DNA from: Syntrophobacterales bacterium GWC2_56_13
GTDB lineage: Bacteria > Desulfobacterota > Syntrophia > Syntrophales > UBA5619
Reading direction: 5' to 3'
DNA length: 36,715 nucleotides
Assembly (NCBI GenBank): GCA_001830835.1
Contig: MICJ01000066.1
Coordinates: 7,047 to 43,761, forward strand
Shown: one piece after another, positions 271 through 19,592 of the stretch
How the letters are laid out: the number at the start of each line of letters is the position of its first letter
How positions within the stretch are numbered: the stretch's first letter is position 1
Translations under genes and position numbers: made by a program
The notes under the pieces: model-generated
Told to the model about the DNA's origin: nothing
The model's database searches: none
What the model saw: only the letters and a program-made list of their open reading frames with translations

Positions 271-600
271 ATGCCGGAATACCTGCACCAGGAACCCGGA
301 ACGGAGGTTCGTTTCATCGCCGGCCATTACGCCATCGTTGAAGAGAGGCGGATCGCCCACCGCGGCCGGGAACTCCTTGTTGTCGTCGGTATCGCCGTCG
401 TCGGGAGCGCCTGCTGCGGCGCCCAGGGGTGCCGTTTTCTGAATGTCCCCGGTTACGTCGCGGCCTGGAAGCACCGCCTCACTGAAAACGGCCTGCCTGT
501 AAGCGAGGTCGAACCGGTCGAGGACGAGAAGGAACAGGCGGAGATCCGGCAGATCCTGGAGAGTCAATTCCCCTACTCCCAGATCCTCTTCCCGGCGTGA
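271..600 (+). CDS. conserved hypothetical protein downstream of mnmE
   Basis: 109 aa ORF with upstream GAGGAGAAAGAG ribosome-binding site; cysteine-containing GSACCGAQGCRF segment. Confidence 0.75.
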   Translation: MPEYLHQEPGTEVRFIAGHYAIVEERRIAHRGRELLVVVGIAVVGSACCGAQGCRFLNVPGYVAAWKHRLTENGLPVSEVEPVEDEKEQAEIRQILESQFPYSQILFPA

Positions 601-784
601 TGCTGAGACGAACCGGAATGGCTCATTATCGGGAGATCCCAAATATGTATCGCCACAGGGTAGATGGTCAACTTTTCTGAGTCGCCGGTATTACAATTAC
701 GTTCTTAAATTACTTGATGATATCGAATATGCAAATGTTGTTGGGAAATTCACATTGACAACGGCCATAGCCAAGGATAAAAAA

Positions 785-807
785 GGCTCATCCGGTTAAT
801 GCGTACT
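785..807 (+). repeat. left inverted repeat copy
   Basis: GGCTCATCCGGTTAATGCGTACT. Confidence 0.7.
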
Positions 808-982
808 CCCTGTTTTTTTTGATTTGGGATAGTCCATATATGCTTTCAATCCGAAATTAATGAAATCACCTCATCACTGGCATTATATGTATTCACATGC
901 TCAGCAATCAAAAAGGGGTAGTATACCTTTAACTTGAGATATAGTAAGGTTATCAAAATAAAGACATTGGGCGCGTACGTAA

Positions 983-1160
983 CCCATAATATAATTAACA
1001 CTTCAACGATGAAACATGATAGCATTTGACTACGAATAAGCGTCAATCCGAAGTTGTTAAAAGGAAGAATATAAATATATTCAAGGCATAGCAGACAATT
1101 TTGGATTGACGCATGAAGGACTGAGCCGCAGCGCAAGGAAGGCACACATTATATTATGGG
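983..1160 (+). ncRNA. candidate structured RNA or leader element, nested inverted repeats
   Basis: Outer arms 983-995 and 1148-1160 are exact 13-bp complements; inner arms 1040-1056 and 1096-1112 form 17 bp with two G-U pairs on the + strand; an innermost palindrome lies at 1067-1082. Confidence 0.4.
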
Positions 1161-1316
1161 GTTTCAATCAGGGTATTCCCCATAAATTTAGCAATGAAAT
1201 ATCAATATGAGCGGGATTGTCAATCATTATTTACCACTAATACAGGGCTCCAGATCTACCGCGCAGCGGTTTAGTTCTTCGATTTATAATCAATTAAATA
1301 ATTAGGAATAATTATC

Positions 1317-2066
1317 ATGGCCGAAAAATTACCGATAAAACTAAATAAAGAGCCGCTGTTAGACGCAATTTTTGAAGTGCGTTTTTCCATGATTACCCCT
1401 GCGTCTAACATTTTACCGGGGATTTTTTTTAGCAAGCTCGATGGCGAAAAATCAATTGAGCGATTGCCTGCCGCGGATCTACCCACGCAAATGCGGGATG
1501 CAGAACCTAACTTGCAGTATGCCCCAGTTATGCGAATACACTGGAAAGAATTCGTTCTTTTAATTAGCGATCGAAGCGTTGCTGTTGCTTGCAAAATGCC
1601 TTATGCCGGATGGAAAAAATTTAAAAATGCCATCATTCAGATGGTCAAGATTCTCGATGAAGTTGAGATTCTTGAAAGCATTCAGCGGTACTCTATGAAA
1701 TACATAGACTTGATCCCTATCAAGAACTTGAGTGAGCAGATTGCATCCGTTAACATCAACATCAGCTTAGGCGATCATAAATTGGAAAAAGAGATGTTCC
1801 AGTTTCGGATTGAAATTGTAGATGGTGAATTTATCAACGCCGTGCAAATTGTTTCTTCTGGAGTAGTAAGAACAAAGGACAAAACCACAAAAGAAGGCTT
1901 AATTATTGATATTGACACCATCCGCAAAGTCGATAATCTCAATATCAAGACTTTTCTTTCTGAACTTCAAGAAATATTGGAAAATATCCATGAAAAAAAC
2001 AAAGTAATGTTTTTCAAATGTATTACCCCCACTACACTCGAGTTCTTGGAGCCTATCTATGTATAA
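1317..2066 (+). CDS. TIGR04255-like family protein
   Basis: N-terminus MAEKLPIKLNKEPLLDAIFEVRF resembles the family's PLxxAxFEIRF signature; 249 aa; first gene of an overlapping operon. Confidence 0.7.
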   Translation: MAEKLPIKLNKEPLLDAIFEVRFSMITPASNILPGIFFSKLDGEKSIERLPAADLPTQMRDAEPNLQYAPVMRIHWKEFVLLISDRSVAVACKMPYAGWKKFKNAIIQMVKILDEVEILESIQRYSMKYIDLIPIKNLSEQIASVNINISLGDHKLEKEMFQFRIEIVDGEFINAVQIVSSGVVRTKDKTTKEGLIIDIDTIRKVDNLNIKTFLSELQEILENIHEKNKVMFFKCITPTTLEFLEPIYV

Positions 2067-2397
2067 CTATTTCATTAATCAAGAATCTGGCACCGTTAGT
2101 TCTGTTACCTTTAGAGGTATTCTCGCTGCACAATTTTTAGCTGATCAGATGAACGTTAAGCAGGAAGACGACCAATATAGACCTCCATACATACGCGATG
2201 TCTACCATTGGTTTGCGACTCCTGCTACTTTTGATCACTTTAGGACCATCGTAATGGGAGAGTACCAGCAGGAGAGTGATCAATTTGAGGTGCATGTTGC
2301 CAAATTCTATACCAAGTTACTTGCCAGTCAAGAATCGCTAGGGGCCGAATTTGAGAAGGTTCTGCATGAGAATTTATGGAATCTTTATGAAAGCTAA
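2059..2397 (+). CDS. hypothetical protein, second gene of TIGR04255 operon
   Basis: 112 aa, overlaps the upstream stop by 8 nt; same AT-rich composition. Confidence 0.7.
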   Translation: MYNYFINQESGTVSSVTFRGILAAQFLADQMNVKQEDDQYRPPYIRDVYHWFATPATFDHFRTIVMGEYQQESDQFEVHVAKFYTKLLASQESLGAEFEKVLHENLWNLYES

Positions 2398-2408
2398 TCG
2401 GGTGCCTT

Positions 2409-3011
2409 ATGGATCTCAGTATCGATGCCATACAAAATCAAATCCCCTATTACCTGACACAAAGAGACAAAGAAGCCTTGGTTAAGGAGTTAAAGAACTT
2501 TAAATCCATCACTTATTACATAAATCTACATCCTGCCGTTGCTTTGCAAGGGGACGGTTGGTCTGAGTTGGGCTTAATTAGATACGAAACAGGGGAGCGC
2601 AAGCAAGTCCGTGGAATAGTCCTTTCCAACAGCTGTGATATTGATCCAACAAATAAAATGGACATACCGGCCAAACTTTTGTTTGCTCCCATTATTAAGC
2701 TAAAGGCTTATGCAGGGCTACTTGAAAAGGCTAATATTCCAAGAGAAAAAATCTTTGGCAAGTTCAATTCCATCCGTGAGCAGCGGGTAACAACTCTCTT
2801 CTATCTCCCCAAAGGTGCAGGTCTTGAAGATGAATATATCGCCTTGCTCGATGATATTCATTCACTTCCTCTTACGGCATTCTTCGAACAGAAGAATCGG
2901 ACCAAACTATTTACACTTAGCCTTGCCGGTTTTTATCTTTTTGTACTGAAGCTATCTGTGCATTTTTGCCGTTTTAGCGAAGAAGGTGTGATTCGGACTG
3001 AGGCGATTTAA
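2409..3011 (+). CDS. hypothetical protein with VLSNSCDI motif, third gene of operon
   Basis: 200 aa, starts 11 nt after the previous stop; no family recognised with confidence. Confidence 0.7.
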   Translation: MDLSIDAIQNQIPYYLTQRDKEALVKELKNFKSITYYINLHPAVALQGDGWSELGLIRYETGERKQVRGIVLSNSCDIDPTNKMDIPAKLLFAPIIKLKAYAGLLEKANIPREKIFGKFNSIREQRVTTLFYLPKGAGLEDEYIALLDDIHSLPLTAFFEQKNRTKLFTLSLAGFYLFVLKLSVHFCRFSEEGVIRTEAI

Positions 3012-3191
3012 AAAGCAGAACAATAGAAAATATACCCAAATGGTTTACTCCTAATCCTGTATTCGAAACGTTCACCATGCTGGTGAATTGGCCACCCAAG
3101 ACTCGATAAATATGTCGTTACACCCTTTCAATCCGAATTCAACGATGCTTCGGGAATCGAAGACTCACACTTCGTAGGTGAACGAGAGAGA

Positions 3192-3214
3192 AGTACGCAT
3201 CAACCGGATGAACC
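3192..3214 (-). repeat. right inverted repeat copy
   Basis: AGTACGCATCAACCGGATGAACC, inverted relative to 785-807. Confidence 0.7.
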
Positions 3215-3256
3215 TAAAAAAAGACAATTTATTGACACAAAAAAGGTCATCGTCTT

Positions 3257-4555
3257 ATGAGCCGGCATAAAATCATCGTGGCAGATTCGCGTTCCATGCT
3301 GGAAACTGCGAACGAATACGTCCATCTGATCATCACGTCACCCCCCTACTGGCAGCTCAAGGATTATGACAGCGCAAACCAGATCGGATTCAATGACACC
3401 TATGAAGACTACATCAACAATCTGAACCTGGTCTGGCAGGAATGTCACCGGGTCCTGCACGGCGGGTGTCGCCTGTGCATCAACATCGGCGACCAGTTCG
3501 CGCGGTCCGTCTATTACGGCCGGTATAAAGTCATCCCCATCCGGACCGAAATCATCAAATTCTGCGAGACGATCGGTTTTGACTACATGGGCGCGGTCAT
3601 CTGGCAGAAGGTCACGACGTGCAACACCACCGGCGGCGCCACGATCATGGGATCGTACCCGTATCCCCGAAACGGCATCATCAAGATCGATTATGAATTC
3701 ATCCTTCTCTTCAAAAAGCCGGGGGCTCCCCCTCCTGTCGGCAGGTCGGAACGGGAGCAATCCGTCCTGTCAATCGAGGAATGGAATGAGTACTTTGCCG
3801 GGCACTGGAACTTCCCCGGGGAGAAACAGGACAAGCATCTCGCCATGTTTCCGGAAGAACTGCCCAAGAGGCTGATCAAGATGTTCAGCTTCGTCGGAGA
3901 AACCGTCCTCGACCCCTTCCTGGGGAGCGGCACCACCTCGCTGGCTGCAAAGCGTCTCCAGAGGAACTCGATCGGCTACGAAATCAACGACGCTTTCCTG
4001 CCGATCATCCGGAAAAAATTGGGCGCCGAACAGGGAGACATCTTCGATAAGACCCTCATCGAGGTTGTCGAACGCAAAAGCGAGGGCGCAGATTATCGGC
4101 AGAAAATCAAAGAACTGCCGTACCTGTTTGAGGACAAAGTCAAATTCGACAAGAAGATCGATCCCCGAAAGCTGACCTTCGGCTCCAGGATCGAAGCCGG
4201 CAGCAACAACGGAAAGGAGCAATATCTTCATTTTAAGCGCGTTGTCTCCCCGAACACGGTTGAATTCAACAATGACATGATTGTCAGGCTCTTAGGCATC
4301 AAGGGCATGGAAGGGAAAGAGCCGGTGGCCATGAAATGGTTGTGGGATAAACTGAAAGGACAGAGTGTTTACCTGAAATTCGACCAGATCAAATATGACG
4401 AAAACAACCGCCTTCTTTCCTACCTGTACCTGAAAAACAACACGTTCATCAATTTCCATTTCCTACGGTCGAATCTGGTCCAGGTCGACGAGACTTTCCC
4501 GTTTCGATATCATGCCAAGTTCAAATCCGTTGTGGAAGGGGAAAACCTCTCATGA
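3257..4555 (+). CDS. beta-class DNA methyltransferase, probable m4C, of a type II restriction-modification system
   Basis: SPPYW catalytic motif IV near the N-terminus, followed by DPFLGSGTTSLAAKR SAM-binding motif I. Confidence 0.92.
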   Translation: MSRHKIIVADSRSMLETANEYVHLIITSPPYWQLKDYDSANQIGFNDTYEDYINNLNLVWQECHRVLHGGCRLCINIGDQFARSVYYGRYKVIPIRTEIIKFCETIGFDYMGAVIWQKVTTCNTTGGATIMGSYPYPRNGIIKIDYEFILLFKKPGAPPPVGRSEREQSVLSIEEWNEYFAGHWNFPGEKQDKHLAMFPEELPKRLIKMFSFVGETVLDPFLGSGTTSLAAKRLQRNSIGYEINDAFLPIIRKKLGAEQGDIFDKTLIEVVERKSEGADYRQKIKELPYLFEDKVKFDKKIDPRKLTFGSRIEAGSNNGKEQYLHFKRVVSPNTVEFNNDMIVRLLGIKGMEGKEPVAMKWLWDKLKGQSVYLKFDQIKYDENNRLLSYLYLKNNTFINFHFLRSNLVQVDETFPFRYHAKFKSVVEGENLS

Positions 4556-5136
4556 AGAAAATCAGGATCAAGAATGAGGAAGTTACGCAACTACTTGATG
4601 CGGAAGTCGTTTCGTTTCCCAAATATGCCACCCAGTTGATCAATCTGGCGAATCAGAACGCCCAGGGCACAAGGCCGGAAGTCGTCGGGCAGATGAGCGA
4701 TCTGATTCAACAGTTCAAAGGACGAAAACTCAGGGAATGGGAGGAGTGGTATCTGAACCGGCATCCCGAGGCGATTGAGAAGGCGAAAACCAGGATCCTG
4801 CAGATGATGGAGAATCTCAAGAAGGTCATCACGTTGATCGATGCGGATATGATCGAAGCCTGGGTTCGGGACCTCGTCATTGTCAAAACGTTTGTCGGCC
4901 TCAAATTCCAGGAAGCGATTCTGAAACATATCGCCACCTCTGTTAATAAATCCTATCGATTGTCGGATCCTGAAGAAGAAGCGAGGGGAATCGATGGTTA
5001 TATCGGAGAAACGCCCATCAGCATCAAGCCGCAAAGCTATGAATCGAAACCAATGCTTCCGGAAACCATCGGCGTCCGCATCATCTACTATGAGAAGGTA
5101 AAGGACGGGATCAATCTTTATTTTGAAGAATTTTAA
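4552..5136 (+). CDS. type II restriction endonuclease, probable MjaI-like (CTAG) family
   Basis: Overlaps the methyltransferase stop by 4 nt (ATGA); FPKYATQLINLANQNAQGTRPEVVGQMSDLI segment resembles MjaI-type endonucleases from memory; specificity not proven. Confidence 0.65.
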   Translation: MKKIRIKNEEVTQLLDAEVVSFPKYATQLINLANQNAQGTRPEVVGQMSDLIQQFKGRKLREWEEWYLNRHPEAIEKAKTRILQMMENLKKVITLIDADMIEAWVRDLVIVKTFVGLKFQEAILKHIATSVNKSYRLSDPEEEARGIDGYIGETPISIKPQSYESKPMLPETIGVRIIYYEKVKDGINLYFEEF

Positions 5137-19480: not shown

Positions 19481-19592
19481 TTACGTTTCTAAGATAACCC
19501 TGGCCAACGCTTTGTAGGTGAAAGCGAGGTTGCTTGCTATCAGGCTTTGATCTCGTCCTTTTTCACGAATGTACGCATCAACCGGATGAACC
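19481..19592 (-). pseudogene. possible coding remnant containing the third dispersed-repeat copy
   Basis: Minus-strand frame HPVDAYIREKGRDQSLIASNLAFTYKALARVILET* is open but has no start of its own. Confidence 0.25.
19571..19592 (-). repeat. third, solitary copy of the same dispersed repeat
   Basis: GTACGCATCAACCGGATGAACC is identical over 22 nt to 3193-3214. Confidence 0.75.

Follow-up and report, generated by a model that had tools for sequence, protein, structure and literature searches.

A probable mobile insertion cassette with ISL3-type ends carries an undescribed prophage-type operon in a Syntrophobacterales bacterium

RESULTS

Layout of the cassette

The window, that is, the whole stretch of 36,715 nucleotides that was analysed from Syntrophobacterales bacterium GWC2_56_13, contains a compact unit of 2,430 bp, measured between the outer edges of two terminal inverted repeats at 785–3214 (Table 1). 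The two repeats are identical at 21 of 23 positions (92% over 24 bp), and the unit is bordered on each side by the same TAAAAAA. Its G+C content is 39.6% versus 57.3% in both flanks. Three tightly packed genes follow a leader of about 500 bp in which no credible gene was found, and an Rfam scan of positions 600–3300 returned zero matches. Domain and profile searches of the cassette proteins revealed no transposase domain inside the unit. All of these features are as given in the preliminary description, which had been made from the sequence alone. It had also called the unit TIGR04255-headed, which holds, as the first gene matches this family with E = 4.4e-30, and had placed it beside a restriction-modification pair, which proved to consist of an N6/N4 DNA methyltransferase and an MjaI endonuclease (PF09568).

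The extra segment of the leader at 1032–1278 recurs elsewhere in the same genome (contig C23, 86%) and in the related genome G018 (contig C178, 89%). Of the two outside copies (L002, 670–941; L217, 1033–1318), one lies about 90 bp inside another ISL3-type end.

Table 1. Features of the cassette and its flanks (window positions unless a locus is named)
Feature	Position	Strand	Remark
Left target-site duplication copy, TAAAAAA	778–784	no strand	single A-rich copy at G013 and G020 empty sites
Left terminal inverted repeat, ISL3-type, GGCTCATCCGGTTAATGCGTACT	785–807	+	ends match intact ISL3-family element
Non-coding leader, 36% G+C	808–1316	no strand	
Extra non-coding leader segment, ~247 bp	1032–1278	no strand	missing at the homologous operon loci of G010 and G018
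Gene 1, TIGR04255 family protein, 249 aa, phrog_5464	1317–2066	+	
Gene 2, 112 aa, phrog_5728	2059–2397	+	
Gene 3, 200 aa, phrog_4575, predicted MazF/PemK-like fold	2409–3011	+	
Right subterminal sequence, conserved, TCTCTCTCGTTCACCTAC read inwards	3169–3191	-	common to ~10 other element ends
Right terminal inverted repeat, GGTTCATCCGGTTGATGCGTACT	3192–3214	-	
Right target-site duplication copy, TAAAAAA	3215–3221	no strand	
N6/N4 DNA methyltransferase of MjaI-type system (flank)	3257–4555	+	also adjoins G013 and G020 empty sites
MjaI-type restriction endonuclease (flank)	4552–5136	+	PF09568, E = 1.4e-65
~55-bp repeat copies	L181, 862–916 and 3620–3674; L020, 4957–5011 and 7688–7742		

The three-gene operon occurs mostly in prophages

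Homologues of gene 3 were found in Pseudomonas phages and a Phocaeicola plasmid. In every one of them, profiles identified genes 1 and 3 in unchanged order; the gene between the two was recognised as gene 2 by profile in the phages and by position in the plasmid. The gene order is kept in two Pseudomonas phages and the plasmid, and also in three bacterial genomes (G010, G018 and G118). The preliminary description had proposed counting how often the three genes occur together; a scan of viral contigs yielded 44 operon loci, 43 of which have the order gene 1, gene 2, gene 3, some gene 2 copies being called by position and size only and one locus (L347) being recognised by eye, while the remaining locus (L342) is cut at a contig end. 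The operon is carried chiefly by prophages, as one of their accessory operons. It adjoins the portal gene in phage Dobby (Peduoviridae), lies between the CI repressor and the integrase in phage VW-6S, and neighbours integrase, repressor, terminase or tail genes in other prophages. Anti-phage hotspots have been reported between gpA and the portal gene of P2-like phages and between cI and the integrase of a P2-related phage of Vibrionaceae (Rousset et al. 2022, PMC9122126). Homologous operons thus occupy both kinds of position, portal in the Peduoviridae phage and cI–integrase in the other Pseudomonas phage, whereas the window operon resides on a bacterial contig within an ISL3-type cassette and not in a phage. 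All three PHROG families are annotated as unknown in PHROGs, none of the genes has a significant PADLOC model, and a literature search found no paper naming TIGR04255 or phrog_4575.

Predicted folds and conserved motifs

Sequence searches of the PDB with genes 1 and 3 gave nothing significant. The structure-based searches suggested in the preliminary description were informative for gene 3 and uninformative for gene 1, whose model (pLDDT 93.6) gave weak, TBP-like Foldseek matches with a TM of about 0.3, from which no conclusion on the fold is drawn. For gene 3 (model pLDDT 83.6), the top 50 PDB matches were all MazF-type toxins, with a modest best E-value of 9e-5 and TMt values of 0.57–0.73. 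Its predicted fold and a GD...VLSN-like order of motifs resemble the MazF/PemK mRNA interferases; however, at 200 aa the protein is larger, has no Pfam match up to E = 1, including the PemK/MazF sequence models, and carries invariant motifs of its own, QGD and LSN(S/T)CD, and a classical antitoxin is absent. The invariant residues include Q47-G48-D49, L72-S73-N74, C76-D77, N82, T128, P134, S183, R188 and R196, while the catalytic Arg and Thr of MazF are not conserved: by an equivalence read off the motif pattern rather than a structural superposition, they fall at position 68, which is R in 9 of 23 sequences, and position 94, which is P in 21 of 23. Classic MazF chemistry would therefore not be expected of gene 3, whose predicted fold is MazF-like but lacks the MazF catalytic residues. 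In most homologues of gene 2 an N-terminal stretch is moderately hydrophobic, and a motif near the C-terminus, LGxEFxxVLxxNxWDLY, is conserved.

What the operon may do

Outside and inside phages the operon is found in defence contexts, namely beside the restriction-modification pair of the window, next to a PglX-like gene in G010 and at phage hotspots. On balance we regard phage competition as its most likely job, and an anti-phage role as likely. The preliminary suggestion of a possibly defence-related module is strengthened by the conserved prophage gene order, the hotspot positions and the MazF-like fold of gene 3, and it stays a suggestion. In such a system, the MazF-fold protein of gene 3 would be the effector or an RNA-binding part, gene 1 would be its partner or a sensor, and gene 2, with its hydrophobic N-terminus, would couple genes 1 and 3 or act at the membrane; we give these individual roles far less weight than the reading of the unit as a cassette.

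Toxin-antitoxin modules can be defensive too, so that a defence role overlaps with an addiction module in which a MazF-fold toxin and its partner would serve mainly to maintain prophages and cassettes. The MazF-like fold of gene 3 and the carriage of this small operon by prophages, by a plasmid and by a cassette would fit such a module, but it has three genes with no recognisable antitoxin, the MazF catalytic residues are not conserved and the operon sits at phage defence hotspots, and we consider a mainly addictive function rather unlikely. It is also improbable, and more so, that the operon is a prophage accessory that gives host or phage some other benefit, such as lysogeny control or membrane modification, and is merely carried along by the cassette. 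The PHROG families, all without known function, and the varied phage neighbours (integrase, repressor, portal, terminase, tail) leave room for this, yet outside phages the operon adjoins restriction-modification genes, in the window and, with the PglX-like gene identified by eye, in G010, and its hotspot positions favour phage competition.

The terminal repeats match those of ISL3-family insertion sequences

With up to three mismatches allowed, the end motif occurs 17 times in the 2.6-Mb genome that contains the window, versus zero occurrences of a reversed-motif control. Exact copies were found in 57 stretches of other genomes, mostly Syntrophaceae, and single genomes of the same family hold up to 50–60 ends. 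In a closed genome of the same order (G054), the motif flanks 1.31-kb elements present in about 12 copies of two subtypes; one intact element (L237, 353–1665) of 1,313 bp has cassette-type ends and an 8-bp duplication (CTTATTAT), and its transposase matches DDE_Tnp_ISL3 (E = 1e-80) and HTH_Tnp_ISL3. A partial transposase at another locus (L021) also runs into the same terminal repeat. On contig C64 of the window's own genome, a decayed, internally deleted ISL3 transposase remnant terminates in this repeat and is the sole transposase found directly joined to such an end there; no intact cognate transposase was found in this assembly, which is 91% complete. Judged by these sequence matches, the 23-bp inverted repeats of the window are the ends of an ISL3-family insertion sequence. 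A promoter or extragenic repeat was rejected as an explanation of the motif, since the ends are paired, are accompanied by duplications and in some cases enclose an ISL3 transposase. One further locus (L055) was discarded as a transposase copy because only the end is present there. A literature search found no paper coupling ISL3 with Syntrophaceae.

Several other arrangements of these ends were observed. The window contains a second ISL3-type end at 19570–19592 on the minus strand (22 of 23 positions), for which no convincing partner was found; its subterminal sequence, TTCGTGAAAAAGGAcGAGATCAAAG, is common to ends in several genomes. Three ISL3-type ends on contig C93 of G000 (L184), at 111, 2311 and 5877, all have the same orientation, and about 135–190 bp around each are conserved at 91–96%, both inside and outside the repeat. 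G018 holds 34 ends, and no PF01610 transposase was found in its 95% complete assembly; either contig breaks have cost the assembly its copies, or the cassettes are stranded.

The cassette inserted as a unit

On contig C25 of G013 and contig C61 of G020, the upstream gene (window 271–600) and the methyltransferase are the same as in the window and the cassette is absent, the DNA aligning straight across the insertion point (L360 and L361) with a single A-rich copy versus two in the window. Because this restriction-modification locus occurs in both genomes with a single target copy and no cassette, the 2,430-bp unit must have been inserted whole. The preliminary description had allowed that TAAAAAA could be chance, which the two empty sites counter; it had proposed looking for such sites in relatives, and had named flanks continuous with the cassette in all relatives as evidence against its view, a situation that they contradict. 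The insertion spot is A-rich and intergenic, lies just upstream of the MjaI-type methyltransferase gene and bears a short target duplication. This duplication measures 7 bp in the window versus 8 bp at L237, L250, L255, L257 and L271, and loss of one A from the A-run may account for the difference. When the flanks are joined at one TAAAAAA, an open frame runs across the junction and ends on the methyltransferase start codon, which had suggested that the cassette interrupts a gene; the empty-site relatives share that DNA without the open frame, so the site is intergenic.

It is very improbable that the repeats are fortuitous, or that two independent miniature elements bracket a resident operon by accident: single unpaired ends are common in these genomes, making accidental bracketing possible for some pairs (pairs without duplication occur at L172, L046/L182 and L025), but the window unit has a direct duplication at its outer borders, two relatives have empty sites, low G+C is restricted to the unit, and another locus, in G010, holds a sibling cassette that shares the operon and the ends. 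Positions 785–3214 thus very probably constitute a transposase-less mobile insertion cassette (MIC) with ISL3-family ends. The preliminary proposal of a non-autonomous transposable cassette is borne out by the ISL3 element with the same ends, the siblings with target duplications and the two empty sites. Mobility as a unit is well supported. Lacking a transposase, the cassette would depend on one supplied in trans, and we infer that a cognate ISL3 transposase acting in this way excised the 2.43-kb unit and inserted it here.

Sibling cassettes carry different cargoes

Among the 54 convergent end pairs drawn from all retrieved loci, 19 show an 8-bp duplication with at most one mismatch, versus 0.19% in shifted controls; of these 19, five are ISL3 copies of intact length in G054. 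The cargoes of units with a duplication include a ParB-like and Mrr-like nuclease pair (L042), a TIR-domain protein (L031), an ammonium transporter (by eye) with P-II genes (L171) and a cNMP-binding protein with a phosphoesterase (L176). L203 encodes an aldo/keto reductase, L183 (one mismatch in 9 bp) a universal stress protein, L293 a CHAT-TPR protein and L298 a tyrosine phosphatase-like protein; several further cargo proteins gave no match. A GmrSD-type nuclease (L172), a nucleotidyltransferase-HEPN pair (L174), a DNA methyltransferase (L175) and an AAA ATPase with DUF4276 (L020) lie between good ends without a clear duplication; for want of the latter, we did not accept these four loci, or L181 and L182, as proven units. 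Searches of the tested cargo proteins detected no ISL3 transposase domain. The cargoes differ greatly between siblings and are in part defence-like; defence-like cargo is common in this small, non-random sample, for which no enrichment is claimed.

Two others of the pairs with a duplication (L302 and L305) apparently have genes of other mobile elements inside, as judged by eye. The AAA ATPase and DUF4276 genes of L020 (5225–7056) show weak similarity to HEC-01 and AriA-type defence models. At L176 (1037–4847), one left end is followed by two tandem right ends, each behind a different gene, the outer pair having a perfect 8-bp duplication and the inner pair lacking one, which resembles the addition of a second cargo.

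One slot with different cargoes, and operons without repeats

At the G010 locus (L181), a second cassette with ends of this kind carries the window's operon; it is located between the PglX-like gene and selA (both identified by eye). A related metagenome-assembled genome contig (L020) has closely similar ends in the same slot, with the AAA ATPase and DUF4276 pair as cargo. In these two genomes with different cargo, about 55 bp of the end of the PglX-like gene are repeated directly behind the right repeat (Table 1). In G018 (L291) the operon lies beside selA and recognisable ends are absent. Together, the G010, L020 and G018 loci suggest exchange or decay of cassettes at a slot. G118 (L292) also holds the operon without ends, so that operon and mobile unit are separable. 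Relatives carrying the operon without the repeats had been named in the preliminary description as speaking against a cassette; these two genomes are of that kind, while the evidence for insertion stands.

DISCUSSION

MICs such as MIC231 of Bacillus cereus and mic-qnrD/qnrS2 consist of two insertion sequence inverted repeats and passenger genes, with a target duplication and no transposase, and MIC231A1 is mobilisable in trans by the IS231A transposase (PMC3913671). The window unit shares this organisation, including the duplication, and an empty site is at hand; it differs in having ISL3-family ends, in its cargo, an uncharacterised prophage-type operon, and in that ISL3-ended units are numerous in one bacterial group and hold many different cargoes. 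Compared with the ISL3 insertion sequences themselves (L237 in G054), the terminal repeats, the A+T-rich target and the short target duplication are alike, whereas the window unit has no transposase, measures 2,430 bp versus 1,313 bp and duplicated 7 bp versus 8 bp. By its sequence it is a derivative of an ISL3 insertion sequence and not an insertion sequence itself. The cassette is thus of a known kind, the MIC, in a form that we did not find described, and its cargo is an undescribed prophage-type operon.

A broader model is possible, and we put it forward tentatively as a whole: that Syntrophaceae and their relatives keep a pool of transposase-less ISL3-ended cassettes that move and swap varied, partly anti-phage genes from one chromosomal slot to another, integron-like without an integrase, and that the window operon represents a three-gene anti-phage system not described before, in which the MazF-fold protein would have a new chemistry.

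Defence genes move fast between bacteria, and what carries small modules is often unknown. The vehicle seen here is simple, made of insertion sequence ends and cargo without a transposase, in many copies with many cargoes, and at one chromosomal slot the cargo differs between two related genomes. Among prophages the three-gene operon is widespread; it is conserved in order and directly testable. The end motif also offers a handle for finding further cassettes and, in them, unknown defence genes. If such cassettes are moved in trans, one insertion sequence could spread a whole repertoire of genes.
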